This document shows positions 14,264 through 22,598 of a DNA stretch of 64,000 nt, piece by piece. The stretch is from Olsenella timonensis. GTDB taxonomy: Bacteria; Actinomycetota; Coriobacteriia; Coriobacteriales; Atopobiaceae. Under the pieces are notes generated by a model. That model had not been told where the DNA came from, made no database searches, and worked only from the letters and a program-made list of their open reading frames with translations. The stretch covers positions 1 through 64,000 of the forward strand of contig NZ_LT635455.1 in NCBI RefSeq assembly GCF_900119915.1, written 5' to 3'. The translations under genes were made by a program, and so were the position numbers. The stretch's first letter is position 1; each line of letters starts with the position of its first letter.

Positions 14264-17200
14264 TTGAGAGCACGTCACGTCACCTCGGAGCGTGAGTACC
14301 GGTCCCCATTCGGTGCCGTCCAGCTGGGCGGCACCGTTTCGCTGAGCATAGACGTGTGGGAGGACGACGTCACGTTCTGCACCCTGCGCGTGTGGACCGA
14401 CGCCCACGGCGAGGAGCTTATCGAGATGCGCGGGGCCGAGCACGCCGGCGGCCTGCGCTTCACCGCCGCGTACCGGCCCGCCGAGACGGGCGTGGTCTGG
14501 TACAGCTTCGACATCGAGGCGAGCGACGGCGCGGTGTGGCGCTACGGCGCCCGCGAGGGCTGGGTCACCGGGGAGGGCGCCTTCGCCTACGGCGACCCCC
14601 CGTCGTTCCAGATCACGGTCTTCTCGCCCCGGGCGCACCAGCCCAGGTGGTACCGCGAGGGCATCGTCTATCAGATCTTCCCGGACCGCTTCGCGCGCGG
14701 GGAGGACTGGCGCGAGCGCGCCGCCGACACCCTTGCGATTCAGCGCAAGGGAGGCCCCGCGCGCGAGGTGCTCGAGGACTGGGACACCCCGCCCACCTAC
14801 CGGCGCGAGGGCGACGGCAGCGTGGCGTGCTGGGACTTCTACGGCGGCACGCTCGAGGGCATCCGCGAGCGGCTCGACTACCTCGAGGACCTCGGCGTGA
14901 CCGCGATCTACCTCAACCCCGTGTTCGAGGCGGCGAGCAACCACCGCTACGACACGGCCGACTACCTCAGGATCGACCCGCTCCTCGGCGACGAGCAGAG
15001 CTTCCGCGCGCTGTGCGTCGACGCCGAGGAGCACGGCATATCGATCATCCTGGACGGCGTCTTCAATCACGTGGGTGCCGACTCGCGCTACTTCAACCGC
15101 TTTGGCACCTATGCCGAGCCGGGCGCGTGGCAGGGCGAGCGCTCGCGCTATCGCTCCTGGTTCACCTTCAACGACGACGGCACCTATGCCGGCTGGTGGG
15201 GGGACCAGAACCTCCCGTCCGTCCGCTCGGACTGCGAGGACTTCCACGAGCTCGTGTGCGGGCGCGCCGGTGTCATCCGCCACTGGCTGCGCCAGGGCGC
15301 GCGCGGCTGGCGGCTCGACGTCGCCGACGAGCTGACCGACGAGTTCATCGCGCAGATCAAGCACGCGCTCCTCGTCGAGAAGCCCGACGGCGTGCTGATC
15401 GGCGAAGTCTGGGAGGACGCCTCGCACAAGACGGCCTACGGGAAGCTGCGCCACTACTTCCAGGGAGCCGAGCTCGACGCCACGATGAACTACCCCGTGC
15501 GCACCGCGCTGCTCGCCTACGTCCGCGGCGAGATGGGCGCGAGCGAGCTGGCGGCGCGTCTCGAGGAGCTGCGCGAGAACTACCCGCGCGACAACTTCTA
15601 CTCCGCCCTCAACCTGCTGGGGAGCCACGACCGCGAGCGCCTGTTCACGGTGCTGGGCGGGGCGCCCGACCCCGACTCGATCCCGGAGGGCGAGCGCGCG
15701 ACCTGGCGCCTCTCGGACGACCAGGTCGGCCTCGCGAAGTCGCGCCTGTGGGTCGTGGCGCTGCTGCAGATGACGCTGCCCGGCGTGCCGTGCGTCTACT
15801 ACGGCGACGAGCGCGGCGTCGAGGGCTTCCGCGACCCGTACAACCGCGCGAGCTTCCCGTGGGACGGCGGCAGGCGCGACTGCACCGACATCTACCGCAA
15901 CGCGATCGCGGTGCGCAAGATGCTGCCCGACCTGCTGGTCAACGGCGAGTTCGAGCCCTTCTCGTCCGGCGAGGACGTCTTTGGCTTCTGGCGCCGCGGC
16001 GAGGACGAGCGCGTGTGCGTGCTCGTCAACGCCAGCCTCTCCGACGCGCACACCGTCAAGGTGCCCGTTGGGGACAAGCAGGTCGCGGACGTCGTCTCGG
16101 GCGTCACGCCGCGCGTGAGCCACGGCCAGGCGGAGGTCTTCCTCTGGCCGCTCGGCACCGCGGTTCTGCACTTCCATCGCGAGCGCCGCCTCCAGGAGCC
16201 GCTCGAGCGCGGCATGGGCGTGCTCTGTCACATAACCTCCGTGCCCAACGGCGGCTGGCCCGGCACGCTCGGCGCCCCGGCGCGCCGCTTCGTGGACTGG
16301 CTCGCCGCGGCGGGCCAGAAGTACTGGCAGGTCCTGCCCGTCAACCCCACGGACCGCTTTGGGTCCCCGTACGCCGGCCTCGGCGCGTTCGCGGGCAACC
16401 TCGGCCTTCTCGAGCTCCCCGCCCCGGCGGCGCTCGCGCGTCTCGAGCGCATCGGCAACGATCCCGACTACCTGCGCTTCTGTGACGAGAACGACTACTG
16501 GCTCACGCCCTACGCGACCTTCCGCGCCTGCAAGGAGCTCCTGGGCGAGAAGCCCTGGCAGGAGTGGCCGGAGCCCTATCGCACCTACTCGCCGCGCCTG
16601 GCGGCGGACCCCAGGCTGCGCCACGCGATCGAGGCGCACCGCCGCCTGCAGTTCGAGTTCCAGCGCGAGTGGGACGACCTGCTCGACTACGCGCACGCGC
16701 GCGGGGTCAAGATCATCGGCGACATGCCGATGTTCGTCTCGGCCGACTCCGCCGACGTCTGGAGCGAGCCGGACATCTTCGACCTCGACGAGCGGGGCTA
16801 CGCGCGCCGCGAGGCCGGCGCCCCCGGCGACGCCTTCGCGCCCGATGGGCAGAACTGGGGCAACCCCGTCTTCCGCTGGGACATCCTGCGCGAGCAGAAC
16901 TACGGCTGGTGGCTGCGCCGCTTCAGCCGGATGCTTGCCCTCTACGACGTGGTCCGGCTCGACCACTTCATCGGCTTCATGTCCTACTTCGGCATCCCGG
17001 CGGGCAGGACGGCGCGCGAGGGCTCGTATGCCTTCGGACCGGGCGCGGAGCTCTTCCGCGCGGCCGAGCGCCAGTTTGGCCCGCTGCCCTTCATCGCCGA
17101 GGACCTCGGCGCCATCACGCCGGCGGTTCGCGCGCTCGTGGCGGCTACGGGCTTCCCGGGCATGGACGTGGCGCAGTTCTCCGACGACGACGTGCGGGAG

Positions 17201-17527
17201 GGCTACATGCCGCGCCCCGAGACCGTGGCCTACACGGGGACGCACGACAACCAGACGCTGGTGGGGTTCTGCGAGGGTCGCTACGGCCTCGGGCGCGAGG
17301 AGGCGGTCGAGGCCGCCGACGGCATCCTGCGCCGCGTGCTGGCGAGCGACGCCGACGTGGCGATCGTGCCGCTGCAGGACGTGCTCGGCCTCGGGGACGA
17401 GGCGCGCATGAACGTGCCCGGCGTCGCGGACGGCAACTGGAGCTGGCGCGCGAGCGGCGAGGCCGTTGCCGCGGCGGCCGCCCGCCTTGCCGACCTCGCC
17501 GAGGAGAGCGGGCGGATCCTGGGGTAG
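14264..17527 (+). CDS. GH13 alpha-glucan hydrolase fused to 4-alpha-glucanotransferase (GH77)
   Basis: The 1087-residue protein joins two enzymes. Residues 1 to about 645 are a neopullulanase-like GH13 protein: an N-terminal beta domain, then DGVFNHVG, nucleophile region GWRLDVADEL (near 352), acid/base IGEVWEDAS (near 380) and LGSHDRERL (near 455). From about residue 650 a MalQ-type GH77 domain begins (LCHITSVPNGGWPGTLG), with IGDMPMFVS, nucleophile region VRLDHFIGF (near 898), AEDLG (near 944) and TGTHDNQT (near 992). The protein would debranch or cut maltodextrins and disproportionate the products. The TTG start follows AGAGGAGAG and is 3 bp after glgA. Confidence 0.92.
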   Translation: MRARHVTSEREYRSPFGAVQLGGTVSLSIDVWEDDVTFCTLRVWTDAHGEELIEMRGAEHAGGLRFTAAYRPAETGVVWYSFDIEASDGAVWRYGAREGWVTGEGAFAYGDPPSFQITVFSPRAHQPRWYREGIVYQIFPDRFARGEDWRERAADTLAIQRKGGPAREVLEDWDTPPTYRREGDGSVACWDFYGGTLEGIRERLDYLEDLGVTAIYLNPVFEAASNHRYDTADYLRIDPLLGDEQSFRALCVDAEEHGISIILDGVFNHVGADSRYFNRFGTYAEPGAWQGERSRYRSWFTFNDDGTYAGWWGDQNLPSVRSDCEDFHELVCGRAGVIRHWLRQGARGWRLDVADELTDEFIAQIKHALLVEKPDGVLIGEVWEDASHKTAYGKLRHYFQGAELDATMNYPVRTALLAYVRGEMGASELAARLEELRENYPRDNFYSALNLLGSHDRERLFTVLGGAPDPDSIPEGERATWRLSDDQVGLAKSRLWVVALLQMTLPGVPCVYYGDERGVEGFRDPYNRASFPWDGGRRDCTDIYRNAIAVRKMLPDLLVNGEFEPFSSGEDVFGFWRRGEDERVCVLVNASLSDAHTVKVPVGDKQVADVVSGVTPRVSHGQAEVFLWPLGTAVLHFHRERRLQEPLERGMGVLCHITSVPNGGWPGTLGAPARRFVDWLAAAGQKYWQVLPVNPTDRFGSPYAGLGAFAGNLGLLELPAPAALARLERIGNDPDYLRFCDENDYWLTPYATFRACKELLGEKPWQEWPEPYRTYSPRLAADPRLRHAIEAHRRLQFEFQREWDDLLDYAHARGVKIIGDMPMFVSADSADVWSEPDIFDLDERGYARREAGAPGDAFAPDGQNWGNPVFRWDILREQNYGWWLRRFSRMLALYDVVRLDHFIGFMSYFGIPAGRTAREGSYAFGPGAELFRAAERQFGPLPFIAEDLGAITPAVRALVAATGFPGMDVAQFSDDDVREGYMPRPETVAYTGTHDNQTLVGFCEGRYGLGREEAVEAADGILRRVLASDADVAIVPLQDVLGLGDEARMNVPGVADGNWSWRASGEAVAAAAARLADLAEESGRILG

Positions 17528-17611: not shown

Positions 17612-17718
17612 GTCCTGAAAAACGAGGCTGTGGCACGATTTTCCGGCAAATGTCCTGAAAATCGAGGCTGTGGCACGATTTGGGGCTCCCGGCGTGCCAT
17701 AGCCCCATTTTTCAGGAC
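17612..17718. repeat. Family A repeat element, left copy (107 bp)
   Basis: Two direct 30-bp units beginning GTCCTGAAAA start at 17612 and 17652, exactly 40 bp apart. They share GTCCTGAAAA, CGAGGCTGTGGCACGATTT and differ at one base. An inverted copy (CGTGCCATAG to TTTCAGGAC) occupies 17693-17718, so unit 2 and the inverted copy can form a long imperfect hairpin. The same 107-bp arrangement occurs in the same orientation at 18934-19040, on the other side of the intervening gene. Confidence 0.9.
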
Positions 17719-17750
17719 GCCACAGCCCAGAGGGGTCTGCTCGCCTGTCG

Positions 17751-18857
17751 TCAGTCGAGGCCGTACGCATCCACGGGGACGGCGTCCCAGCCTGCGTCGT
17801 CTCCCTGTGCCTGCGCCTGCTCGCGCCGCCTGCGGATCCCGTCCCATCGGACCCCGTCGATGCGCTCCAGCTCCTGGTAGAGGCGCAGCCTCAGGCGCCT
17901 GAGCCGCGCGGCCTCCGCGTGCGTGCGACGCTTTGCCGGGGTGCCGAGGTCGCGTCTGATCAGGTCCACGAGGCCGTCCATGTAGGCGAGGTCGCAATAC
18001 TGCGCCTTGGTGACGAGGTACTCCACGACTCCGATCGCGGTCAGCTCGTTGTGCCGCTCCGCGTCTCTCGCGTGCGCCTCCTCGGAGGCATGGTCCTTTC
18101 CGTCGTACTCCACCGCCGCCCCGAGCAGCGGGCGGCCGTTGCGCATGGCGCCGGCTGGGGCCCGCAGGAGGATGTCGGGCCTTCGGACGCCCGTGCGCAT
18201 CCTGTTACGGATGCGCACGACCTCCAGCGGGTCGTTCATGGAGAGCACGTCGAGTCCGTAGCCGCCGCGGGCCGGGTTGAGGCCCAGGCGCAGGGCGAGC
18301 TTGGTCTCTCGCGGGGACCCGGACCCCACGCAGGCGCGCCTCAGCGCGCGCCGCACCCTGATTACGCCGGCGAAGGTGCCCAGCCCGTCGAGGTGCGCCT
18401 CGATCAGCTCGCGTGTGGTGACGGCGGCTCGCCGCTGGTACATGCCGTCCTCGAGCTCCGGGGCGACGGAGTAGGCGCCCATGAGCTCGGAGAGCAGCAC
18501 GATGAGCTCGAGCTCCGTGAGTCGTGGCGCCAGCTGCACGACAAGGTGCTCGGGCGAGACGCAGCAGACGCCGGGGGCCACGAGGAAGGCGGAGCCAGCG
18601 GGCGGCAGCCGAGGTGCGACATGCGTTCTGACGAGTCGCGACCTCCTGCGTCCCGCCTCGCCGGCGACAAGGACCTCAACCGGCGTCGTGAGCGTGGAGA
18701 GCGTCGGCGCCGCGGCGATCAGGCGGGCAAGCTCGTCGTCACGCGGACCGCGCCCCGGGACAAGCGCGTCGCAGCGGTGGCGCTCCTCCAGGGCGCGGCG
18801 CAGCGTCTGCAAACGCACCACCTCAAGGGCCGAGAAATGAGAGATTAGTATGTCCAT
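17751..18857 (-). CDS. Predicted nuclease-domain protein (DUF559/Vsr-like) of unknown role
   Basis: The 368-residue protein is not a clear member of a characterised family. The middle (residues 60-165) resembles the winged-helix/AbiEi-type domains seen in many coriobacterial hypothetical proteins. The C-terminal half has a PD-(D/E)xK-like pattern: SPRETKLAL (Glu184), RRPDILL (Asp228), AVEYDGKDH (Glu250) and then ARDAERHNEL, as in DUF559 proteins. The last 60 residues are basic and helical. There is no ribosome binding site; a TAGTAT box lies 6 nt before the ATG, suggesting a leaderless transcript. The gene is transcribed against its neighbours and bracketed by two family A elements. Confidence 0.75.
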   Translation of the reverse strand: MDILISHFSALEVVRLQTLRRALEERHRCDALVPGRGPRDDELARLIAAAPTLSTLTTPVEVLVAGEAGRRRSRLVRTHVAPRLPPAGSAFLVAPGVCCVSPEHLVVQLAPRLTELELIVLLSELMGAYSVAPELEDGMYQRRAAVTTRELIEAHLDGLGTFAGVIRVRRALRRACVGSGSPRETKLALRLGLNPARGGYGLDVLSMNDPLEVVRIRNRMRTGVRRPDILLRAPAGAMRNGRPLLGAAVEYDGKDHASEEAHARDAERHNELTAIGVVEYLVTKAQYCDLAYMDGLVDLIRRDLGTPAKRRTHAEAARLRRLRLRLYQELERIDGVRWDGIRRRREQAQAQGDDAGWDAVPVDAYGLD

Positions 18858-18863
18858 GAGAAA

Positions 18864-18892
18864 ATACTAACGTAATAACTTAACAACACAAC
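18864..18892 (-). promoter_or_regulatory. Promoter of the nuclease-like gene, AT-rich
   Basis: On the minus strand TTGTGT is followed after 16 bp by TAGTAT (18864-18869), which ends 6 nt before the ATG at 18857. The region is strikingly AT-rich for this genome and includes AATAACTTAA on the plus strand, a 10-mer also found at 42662-42671 inside repeat element B. Confidence 0.5.
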
Positions 18893-18933
18893 GTCTTGTA
18901 GGATGAGCGGATACCGATGCGCCTCAGGCGGCT

Positions 18934-19040
18934 GTCCTGAAAAACGAAGCTATGGCACGTTTTACCGACAAATGTCCTGAAAATCGAGACCGTGGCACGA
19001 TTTGGGGCTTCCGGCGTGCCACAGGCTCGATTTTCAGGAC
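18934..19040. repeat. Family A repeat element, right copy (107 bp)
   Basis: Units start at 18934 and 18974 (40 bp apart) and an inverted copy lies at 19015-19040, reproducing the geometry of the left copy base for base in length. Sequence divergence between the two 107-bp elements is limited to scattered substitutions. Element orientation is the same on both sides of the nuclease-like gene. Confidence 0.9.
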
Positions 19041-19154
19041 ATCCGGTGGGGAGCGTCGGCCCCGCACGGGGGCGGCTACAATGGGCGAGAAGAACCACCC
19101 GTCGCGACCGACCCCGGACCCCGGGGCCGGCGCATCGTGCTGTAGAGGGAGACC

Positions 19155-22100
19155 ATGCTCATCGACCGCGTTTCTCGCCAGCTCGTCGCCGCCCCGGAGC
19201 TTGCGCCGCTCGTGCGCGCGCTCGACGCGGGGGAGGACGCCAGCCTCTCGGTCGCCCAGTCCGCGCGCCCGCTCGTGCTCGCCGCGCTCTGGGCTCGGGC
19301 CCCGCGTCCCTGTCTGCTCGTCGTCTCGGGCGAGGAGGCTGCCGACCGCACGGCCCGTGCGCTCGCGGCGTGGCTCGGGTCCGACGTCGTGGGTCGCTAC
19401 CCCGAGCGGCGCGACCGCCCCTGGGCCGACGCCGTGCCCGACGACGCCGTGATCGGCGCGCGCTGCCGCTCGATCGCGCGCCTCGCCGCCGGGGAGCGCT
19501 GCGTGATCGTCTCCTCCGCCCATGCGCTGCTGCGGCGCGTCCCGCCCGTGGGCAGCGGCTACTTCGCGTCGAGCACGTTCGCGGTGGGCGACGAGGTCCC
19601 CTTCGAGGAGGTGCCGGCGCTGCTCGTGGGGATGGGCTACAACGATGCCGGCGAGGTCGACGCCCCCGGGACCTTTCACGTGCACGGCGACTCCGTCGAC
19701 GTCTTCCCCGCCCAGGCCACGAGCCCCGTCCGCATGGAGTTCTTCGGCGACGAGATCGACCGCGTGCGCCGCATGGTCCCCTCGACCGGGCAGACGATCG
19801 GGGAGCTCCCCGAGGTGACCGTAGCGCCCTGCCGCGAGCTCGCGCTCACGGACGAGACGGTCGCCCGCGCCGAGCGCGCTCTCTACAGGGCGGCGCAGGA
19901 CAGCGCCAAGACCGCCGCCGACCTGGAGCTCATTCGACAGCGGGCCGCGGCGCCCGCGCTCGAGCGCTACCTCCCCCAGCTCTATGGGTCCACGGCCAGC
20001 CCGCTCGAGCACGTCGGTCCCGACGCGCTCGTCGTGCTCGCCGAGCCGCGAGCCCTCTTCGACGACTGCATGCGCGCCACCGACGAGCTCGTCGCTGCGG
20101 CGGGGACCGCCCGCGTCGACCTCGACGGGCTCTACACCTCCCCGCGCGACCTGGACTTTGGCAGCCAGCAGCGCCTGTCCTTCTCGTCCATGCTGCGCGC
20201 TGGCTCCGGCGCCGCCACCGCCGACCTCGAGGTGCGCCAGCCCGGCATCGCCGGCTCGGACGCCAAGCTCATGGGTCGCGTGCGCCAGCTCGTGGCCGAC
20301 CGCTGCGCCGTGCTCTTTGCCGTGCCGGACCGCGCCGCGCGCGAGTCGCTGGAGCTGCGCCTCTCCGACGAGGGCGTCCCGCTCGTCGAGTCCCTGGGGA
20401 CGGCGGTCGAGAACAGCGACCGGCAGGCGCCGCCCCTGGACCGCGGGCGCGTCACCTTCACCGACGCGCCCGTGCCCGCCGGCATCGTCATCCCGGGCGC
20501 GCACCTCGCCGTGCTCTCCGTCTCCGACCTCGCGTCCCGCACGGCAAAGTCGCGCCGACGGGCGCGTCGCGTGGACCCCACGAGCGTGACCTTCCCGTTC
20601 AAGCCCGGCGACTACGTCGTGCACGCGACCCACGGCATCGCGCTCTTCTCGGCGATCGTGCGCCAGGAGGTGGCCGGGCGCGAGCGCGACTACTTCCTGC
20701 TGGAGTATGCCGGCGAGGACAAGCTCTTCGTGCCGCTCGAGCAGGTCGACCGCATCACGCGCTACGTTGGCCCGGACGGCTCCGCGCCGCGCCTCACCCG
20801 CCTCAACACCGCCGACTGGAGCCGGGCCACCGGCAAGGCCCGACGCTCGGCCAAGAAGCTGGCGTTCGACCTCGTGGACCTCTACACGCGCCGCAGCTCC
20901 GTGCCGGGCTACGCGTTCTCGCAGGACACGCCCGTCCAGGAGGAGATGGAGGCGAGCTTCCCCTACGAGCTCACCGCCGACCAGCGCTCCTCGATTGCCG
21001 ACATCAAGTCCGACATGGAGGCGCGTCGCCCCATGGACCGCCTGCTCTGCGGCGACGTGGGCTTCGGCAAGACGGAGGTCGCCCTGCGCGCGGCGTTCAA
21101 GTGCTGCCAGGACGCCAAGCAGGTCATGGTGCTGTGCCCCACCACGATCCTGGCGCAGCAGCACTTTGAGACGTTCTTCTCGCGGTTTGCGCCCTTTGAC
21201 CTCAAGGTGGCGGTGCTCAGTCGCTTTGTGACGCCGGCGCGGCAGCGCAGGGCGCTCGAGGGCTTTGCCGACGGCTCGGTGGACGTGCTCATTGGCACCC
21301 ATCGGCTGCTCTCCGCCGACGTCAACCCCTATGACCTCGGGCTCGTCATCATCGACGAGGAGCAGCGCTTTGGCGTCCAGCACAAGGAGCAGCTGAAGAA
21401 CATGCGCGAGCAGGTGGACGTGCTCACGCTCTCCGCCACGCCCATCCCGCGCACCATGCAGATGGCCATGAGCGGCGTGCGCGACATGAGCCTCATCATG
21501 ACGCCGCCGCCGGGGCGCCTGCCGGTCAAGGTCACCGTGGGCGAGTGGGACCCCGACGTAGTCTCCGCCGCCATCCGCGACGAGCTGGCCCGCAGGGGCC
21601 AGGTCTACTACGTCTCCAATCGCGTCCACACGATCGACGACGCGGTCCAGCGCGTGCGCGAGGCGGCGCCCGAGGCCCGCGTGGGCGTGGCGCACGGCAA
21701 GATGAGCGCGCGCGAGGTCGAGGACGTGATGCTGCAGTTCCAGGAGCACGAGGTCGACGTCCTGGTGGCGACCACAATCATCGAGAGCGGCATCGACAAC
21801 CCCCACACCAACACGCTCATCATCGAGGACTCACAGCGCCTGGGCCTGGCGCAGCTCTACCAGCTCAAGGGTCGCGTCGGCCGCGGGCGCACGCAGGCCT
21901 ACGCCTACTTCATGTTCCCCGCCGACCGTCCGCTCACGCCCGAGGCGACCGACCGTCTCACCGCCATCAACGAGTACCAGGACCTGGGCAGCGGCATGAA
22001 GATAGCGATGCGCGACCTGGAGATCCGCGGCGCAGGCTCGCTCATGGGCGCCGAGCAGCACGGCAACCTCTCCGGCGTGGGCTTTGACCTCTTCACCCAG

Positions 22101-22598
22101 ATGCTCGGCGAGGCCGTCGCGGAGGCGCGCGGCGAGACGCGCGACGTGGAGCAGGCCGAGGTCACGATCAACCTCCCGGCCGACTTCTTCCTCGCCGAGG
22201 AGTACCTGCCCGATGTGGACAAGCGCGTGCTCGCGTACCGTCGCCTCGCCGCCGCCGTGGACCTCTCCGAGGTGGACGACCTCCAACAGGAGTGCGAGAG
22301 GGACTTCGGCGCGCTGCCGCTCGCCGGGCGCAACCTCTTCGACCGCGCCCGCGTGCGCATACGGGCGCAGCGGCTCGGCTGCGCCAGCGTGTCGCTCGCG
22401 AACGGTCGGCTCGTCTACCAGGGGGTCGAGGTCTCGCGGCAGACGGCGCTGCGCCTCAAGGAGCGCGGCGGGGTGGTCTATCCCAAGACCAAGAAGGTGG
22501 CCTACCCGTTCCACCGCACGCAGGAGGAGGTCATGCCCGCCGCGCTCGGCGTGCTCGAGGAGATCGGCGGCGACGACGAGGCGGAGGACGGCGAGTAG
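19155..22598 (+). CDS. mfd: Transcription-repair coupling factor Mfd
   Basis: The 1147-residue protein removes RNA polymerase stalled at DNA lesions and recruits UvrA. Visible in order: the UvrB-homology N-terminal region (VHGDSVDVFPAQ, EFFGDEIDRVRRM); the RNA-polymerase-interacting domain (about 475-540, FKPGDYVVHATHGIALF); the translocase with Walker A GDVGFGKTE (about 632), the DEEQ box IIDEEQRFGVQHKEQL (about 734), LSATPIPRTMQ and the second RecA lobe (VATTIIESGIDNPHTNT, QLKGRVGRG); and the C-terminal TRCF domain (about 1000-1100). Length is normal. TACAAT at 19077-19082 is a -10 candidate. Confidence 0.97.
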   Translation: MLIDRVSRQLVAAPELAPLVRALDAGEDASLSVAQSARPLVLAALWARAPRPCLLVVSGEEAADRTARALAAWLGSDVVGRYPERRDRPWADAVPDDAVIGARCRSIARLAAGERCVIVSSAHALLRRVPPVGSGYFASSTFAVGDEVPFEEVPALLVGMGYNDAGEVDAPGTFHVHGDSVDVFPAQATSPVRMEFFGDEIDRVRRMVPSTGQTIGELPEVTVAPCRELALTDETVARAERALYRAAQDSAKTAADLELIRQRAAAPALERYLPQLYGSTASPLEHVGPDALVVLAEPRALFDDCMRATDELVAAAGTARVDLDGLYTSPRDLDFGSQQRLSFSSMLRAGSGAATADLEVRQPGIAGSDAKLMGRVRQLVADRCAVLFAVPDRAARESLELRLSDEGVPLVESLGTAVENSDRQAPPLDRGRVTFTDAPVPAGIVIPGAHLAVLSVSDLASRTAKSRRRARRVDPTSVTFPFKPGDYVVHATHGIALFSAIVRQEVAGRERDYFLLEYAGEDKLFVPLEQVDRITRYVGPDGSAPRLTRLNTADWSRATGKARRSAKKLAFDLVDLYTRRSSVPGYAFSQDTPVQEEMEASFPYELTADQRSSIADIKSDMEARRPMDRLLCGDVGFGKTEVALRAAFKCCQDAKQVMVLCPTTILAQQHFETFFSRFAPFDLKVAVLSRFVTPARQRRALEGFADGSVDVLIGTHRLLSADVNPYDLGLVIIDEEQRFGVQHKEQLKNMREQVDVLTLSATPIPRTMQMAMSGVRDMSLIMTPPPGRLPVKVTVGEWDPDVVSAAIRDELARRGQVYYVSNRVHTIDDAVQRVREAAPEARVGVAHGKMSAREVEDVMLQFQEHEVDVLVATTIIESGIDNPHTNTLIIEDSQRLGLAQLYQLKGRVGRGRTQAYAYFMFPADRPLTPEATDRLTAINEYQDLGSGMKIAMRDLEIRGAGSLMGAEQHGNLSGVGFDLFTQMLGEAVAEARGETRDVEQAEVTINLPADFFLAEEYLPDVDKRVLAYRRLAAAVDLSEVDDLQQECERDFGALPLAGRNLFDRARVRIRAQRLGCASVSLANGRLVYQGVEVSRQTALRLKERGGVVYPKTKKVAYPFHRTQEEVMPAALGVLEEIGGDDEAEDGE

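Follow-up and report, generated by a model that had tools for sequence, protein, structure and literature searches.

A family of putative nuclease genes and its private repeat arrays in Thermophilibacter/Olsenella genomes

To our knowledge, the established example of an enzyme encoded on the chromosome and accompanied by its own dispersed repeats is REP/RAYT. In these REPIN/RAYT systems (also REPtron or TnpA-REP), one enzyme gene is found per repeat family and both diverge together, while the repeats flank the gene as well as being dispersed between other genes, with several unrelated pairs in a single genome (PMC3116915, PMC8266576). A different relation between a protein and its repeats is found in the type IV antitoxins AbiEi and Rv2827c (COG5340), which bind 23-bp inverted repeats near their gene (PMC7319586). 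Two groups of nucleases complete the comparison: the EDxHD homing endonucleases of Vsr-like fold, represented by I-Bth0305I, and the MTES_1575 (PF18741) / DUF559 nucleases, for which no repeat association was found in the open-access literature searched.

The locus described here lies in a stretch of 64,000 nucleotides (hereafter the window) at the start of contig NZ_LT635455.1 of Olsenella timonensis, a member of a group of gut bacteria. A gene belonging to an uncharacterised family is lodged there between mfd and a malQ-type gene. The features are as follows:

14264..17527, plus strand: malQ-type gene (glycosyl hydrolase / 4-alpha-glucanotransferase), left border of the slot
17612..17718, plus strand: repeat element 3′ of the family gene, with units 17612-17636 (+), 17652-17676 (+) and 17694-17718 (-)
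17751..18857, minus strand: family gene, an open reading frame for 368 amino acids between the two repeat elements
residues 1-176 of the 368-residue protein: AbiEi-antitoxin-like domain, from structure comparison of the AlphaFold model
residues ~181-306: putative PD-(D/E)xK nuclease-like domain (E184, D228, E250, H256), from the conserved motif and the fold model
18858..18905, minus strand: AT-rich stretch 5′ of the gene, probable promoter judging by composition only
18934..19040, plus strand: repeat element 5′ of the family gene, with units 18934-18958 (+), 18974-18998 (+) and 19016-19040 (-)
19155..22598, plus strand: mfd, right border of the slot

The two 107-bp elements share the same orientation and are 86% identical over 118 nt, and each is made of copies of a ~25-nt unit, GTCCTGAAAANCGNNNNNNTGGCAC, in the order +,+,-. 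This confirms the preliminary description, in which the gene was said to stand between two such elements, each with two direct units and one inverted. Both can fold as single strands (z -5.7 for 17612-17718 and z -8.3 for 18934-19040), and no GTAG tag was seen in them; an Rfam search of the 64-kb window returned only tRNAs. When searched for by pattern, as was done for all genome-wide counts given below, GTCCTGAAAANCGNNNNNNTGGCAC is matched 36 times with up to two mismatches in the 2.18-Mb genome, compared to 0 matches for the reversed control pattern, so the repeat is not due to chance. These 36 units form about 12 elements, including the two that bracket the gene, and those with two or more units begin with a direct unit and end with an inverted one.

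The protein was described at first sight as having a PD-(D/E)xK-like C-terminus, and structure prediction backs the nuclease fold. Its conserved C-terminal motif comprises PD228 and E250-Y-x-G-xx-H256; in the family alignment little or no variation is seen at E184, P227-D228, Y251, G253, H256 and D265, residue 250 being E or D in the alignment rows shown. An AlphaFold2 run on 30 sequences gave a model with a mean pLDDT of 89 and a pTM of 0.87. In this model residues 181-306 align with the catalytic domain of I-Bth0305I (3r3p; VIA-align Z 9.4, rmsd 2.9 over 95 residues), while residues 1-176 resemble the C-terminal domain of the AbiEi antitoxin (Z 7.5), the match being limited to that domain (6y8q residues 67-195). 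Since Foldseek alone yielded no significant match for the model and the assignment depends on VIA-align Z scores in the 7-9 range, we regard it as good, not overwhelming. Taken together, motif and model speak for a nuclease domain of the PD-(D/E)xK type, spanning roughly residues 181-306.

Contrary to AbiEi and Rv2827c, the protein carries an added nuclease domain and its repeats occur on both sides of the gene and genome-wide; no AbiEii nucleotidyltransferase toxin gene is adjacent at the window locus, where the neighbours are malQ and mfd. Compared to I-Bth0305I, the N-terminal domain is another one, and the target is uninterrupted, with complete units on both sides. A weak similarity to MTES_1575 is seen around the E-Y-x-G-xx-H motif, but a family protein scores just 15.7 bits against PF18741, far below the gathering score of 38.2. 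No significant family match was obtained for the protein in Pfam, NCBIfam or PADLOC, nothing relevant came from a sequence search of the PDB, and no relative was present in the viral contigs scanned. As for expression, the gene had been credited with an AT-rich promoter of its own: the AT-rich stretch is indeed visible directly before the ATG, but a consensus scan of the locus found no sigma-70-like promoter.

Relatives of the gene are present in all 31 genomes of the genus (Thermophilibacter/Olsenella), with 5-18 matching stretches per genome, and 97 of 150 genomes across the order Coriobacteriales have one at E 1e-25 or better. The collection scan used alignment A2, the full alignment A1 being too diverse.

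What singles out these genes is that most have a repeat of their own. For 74 distinct members, the 700 bp upstream were compared with the 700 bp downstream, counting a repeat as shared at 40 bits or more: 74% of them have a repeat common to both flanks, compared to 3.3% of 5238 cross-genome control pairs and to none of 32 other genes of the window put through the same test. Motif searches gave most members their own unit of about 24 nt (~22-26 nt across members), with scores mostly of 17-61 as against 7-10 in shuffled sequences. Similarity of the repeats follows that of the proteins (Mantel r 0.58, with a permutation maximum of 0.14 and none of 2000 permutations reaching the observed value), and does so when mfd distance is used to control for species (partial Mantel r 0.57); this correlation is in part the joint descent of both partners at the same locus. 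Within a genome, not one of 35 pairs of paralogues has a repeat in common, and in close species the repeat is common to 77% of pairs of close members versus 2% of pairs of distant ones. In the window's own genome (G000), the closest paralogue (at 1925k) has private repeats and several remote paralogues have none. As distant relatives elsewhere in the Coriobacteriales are mostly devoid of strong private flank repeats, the phenomenon described here is that of this genus and of a few related genera of the family. Within these bounds, the cognate pairing of gene and repeat is strongly supported, and cognate repeats flank the gene as in REPIN/RAYT systems. A diverged member in two blocks was also observed beside a 26-nt tandem array, ACGAGAAGGGCGG, at G000:C1:725500-729000 (L304).

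The repeats are not confined to the flanks. Three unit types were counted in the 31 genomes, with reversed-pattern controls all at zero. The GTCCTGAAAA type has 36, 23, 18, 17 and 7 copies in the five genomes carrying a clade-1 gene, 18 in genome G010, and 0-3 in each of the remaining 25; TCTAGGAATCGCCGCCCTTGTC has 159, 117, 76 and 60 copies in the four genomes with its clade's closest genes, 7 in G008, and at most one in any other genome; the third type has 17 copies in G028, 3 in G011 and 1 in G027. Each unit type is abundant almost only in genomes with the gene of the cognate clade, the exceptions being G010 (18 copies), G008 (7) and G011 (3). No clade-1 gene was found in the fragmented, 210-contig assembly of G010 despite its 18 copies. 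As in REPIN/RAYT systems, each enzyme has a single type of cognate repeat scattered through its genome, and two types coexist in G014, with 159 units of one and 18 of another. At three element sites of G000 (610k, 74k and 1830k), a relative without that repeat type has shorter, empty intergenic sequence, although at 610k extra flanking bases, too, distinguish the occupied site from the empty ones. Several element sites are common to different species, so turnover is slow and some sites may be old. Large TCTAGGAATCGCCGCCCTTGTC arrays with a 31-nt period, direct copies preceding inverted ones, were noted at six loci of G014 (L288-L293).

The units are also regularly spaced. Neighbours of the same orientation lie about 31, 41, 52, 62 or 82 nt apart, other spacings being rare, and a scan from 9 to 13 bp gave a best period of 10.4 bp (R 0.86 for 86 distinct spacings at 52 loci, against a random maximum of 0.34), a periodicity whose formal p-value overstates independence because the loci are partly related by descent. 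This value approximates one turn of the B-DNA helix, which argues for a protein lying along one face of double-stranded DNA, and the spacing itself suggests that double-stranded DNA is bound on one face of the helix. Finally, the units of a genome change together. At position 20, T is found in 31 of the 36 units of G000, and 25 of the 26 units of G014 have C; this extends to five orthologous sites, and orthologous units resemble each other no more closely than do units from separate sites within a genome. Such concerted change could come from gene conversion or from co-evolution with the protein.

The explanation that we favour, and consider reasonably probable, for the association, specificity, dispersal, phasing and concerted change of these repeats is a nuclease that recognises its own repeats and whose cutting, followed by repair, copies and homogenises the arrays, in a partnership of the REP/RAYT kind with an unrelated enzyme. 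The gene product would be a putative sequence-specific DNA-binding nuclease, and the bracketing elements its private recognition arrays. The protein would bind its units along one face of the double helix and cut at or near them; recombinational repair would then copy an array from one copy to another, leading to homogenisation, and might occasionally place an array into a new intergenic site. Gene and array would persist together like REPIN/RAYT pairs, with PD-(D/E)xK in place of Y1/HUH. The entry of arrays into new sites goes beyond what cut-and-repair alone explains.

The main competitor is a regulator that binds DNA at many phased sites: an AbiEi-like autoregulator with retained operator repeats of ~23-25 bp, whose arrays would be a regulon or nucleoid-structuring sites and whose nuclease domain would serve otherwise, the turnover of sites being due to ordinary selection and not to mobilisation. 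Such a protein is not without precedent: the promoters of AbiEi and Rv2827c contain 23-bp repeats, tandem or inverted, to which these proteins themselves bind (PMC7319586). Helical phasing is typical of cooperative DNA-binding proteins, some element sites are conserved between species, and concerted change, phasing and co-divergence would also follow from a regulator with many sites. Less easily explained in this way are the arrays 3′ of the gene and hence the bracketing on both sides, and a regulator also has to contend with up to ~159 copies of a unit, inverted ends, elements that are absent at the orthologous sites of relatives, and nuclease residues that are nearly invariant. We therefore judge it unlikely, while taking it more seriously than any other alternative.

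The locus can be followed across species: malQ immediately precedes mfd in those congeners in which the region is assembled. In the 29 genomes judged at this slot (G000 included, and G009 only from a partial contig), the gap holds a family member in 15, none in 11 and another gene in 3; it measures 166-411 nt in the 11 genomes without a member. The unrelated genes, in G012, G008 and G018 (L129, L133 and L134), are two ATPase-like genes and one repeat protein, so the slot may be a general insertion hotspot. Seven of the members are opposite to mfd and eight run along it, and in the tree members of several clades fill the slot. Far from being at the same place in all relatives and devoid of a nuclease core, the block thus varies at the slot, and its fold is backed. 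This pattern is in keeping with a cassette that is mobile, or at any rate labile. The mobile cassette first proposed holds insofar as the gene comes and goes, but no recent transposition was caught in the comparison of the 29 genomes.

A free-standing homing endonuclease cassette would account for a mobile gene by other means, spreading by cutting gene-less arrays, with the dispersed arrays as target sites and the flanking ones as homology arms. The nuclease domain is indeed nearest to the homing endonuclease I-Bth0305I, in fold only, and members of several clades, in both orientations, are found in the slot. In G028 the slot is occupied by another family member, which has a different repeat; the clade-1 gene and its own repeats lie on another contig, where the outer flank matches the sequence just 3′ of mfd in G016; this gene seems to sit on the other side of mfd. 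G010, for its part, has five units of the cognate type in the malQ-mfd gap and no gene. However, the gene does not interrupt its site, so that the intact units on both sides would be cut too, and in G000 it occupies only one of ~11 array sites. Homing is accordingly improbable in our view.

The REP-plus-RAYT-like partnership, also put forward in the preliminary description, comes nearest of its three options: the cognate pairing is strongly backed, but the protein has no Y1/HUH domain. The likeness covers one enzyme per repeat family, flanking and dispersed repeats, co-divergence and several pairs per genome. The enzyme, though, combines PD-(D/E)xK and AbiEi-like domains and so differs from the Y1/HUH enzyme that defines the class, with no Y1_Tnp match among the Pfam hits of 37 family members; moreover, arrays phased at 10.4 bp suggest double-stranded recognition and not that of single-stranded hairpins, and no GTAG tag was seen. 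The partnership thus looks like a REP/RAYT element without belonging to them. Could an unrelated transposase, RAYT or IS, move repeats that merely accumulate near these genes? Y1_Tnp genes occur in eight of nine genomes tested, and an IS lies inside many arrays of G028. Yet no Y1_Tnp gene was found in G014, with its ~177 units of two families, which suggests that RAYTs are dispensable; no such units lie near either of the two Y1 genes of G000, and the type of repeat goes with the nuclease clade rather than with the genome, all of which makes this explanation very improbable. Ordinary transcription terminators around an isolated gene, which the first description had considered protective, are a most improbable reading, for the strong hairpin potential and intergenic position that favour them are set against gene-specific, phased units changing in concert and a consensus scan of the locus that found no intrinsic terminator.

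More tentatively, and with slightly less than even confidence, these putative nucleases may be proposed as a new class of genome-resident replicator, in which PD-(D/E)xK enzymes would bind double-stranded DNA at private phased arrays, which cut-and-repair would spread and homogenise, and which would have diversified into many mutually independent pairs in one bacterial family. No earlier report of such a gene-repeat pairing was found in the open-access literature. If true, this would be a second, unrelated class of enzymes with the REP/RAYT lifestyle, implying that such partnerships evolve repeatedly, and some of the repeats found between genes in Thermophilibacter/Olsenella would have their explanation. 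It would also provide dozens of naturally occurring pairs of protein and site whose ~25-bp specificities diverge, so that the recognition code could be tested directly, as could the way in which short repeats are maintained in genomes.

Two further observations concern the sequences around the repeats. In G028, many GTCCTGAAAA-type elements are split by an IS of ~1.27 kb whose ends read GGGACTGCGGAC...GTCCGCAGTCCC, as are comparable elements in G026; the IS apparently targets the repeats (L225 1-1268 on G028:C12, and the ends of L224, L226-L229, L232, L233, L244 and L245). The motif GGCGAGAAGAAC, with at most one mismatch, occurs nine times in the window against 0.42 expected, once at 19084-19095 and at eight other sites. 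Its inverted form often borders elements of different repeat families, and is also found after a conserved TACAAT box upstream of mfd.
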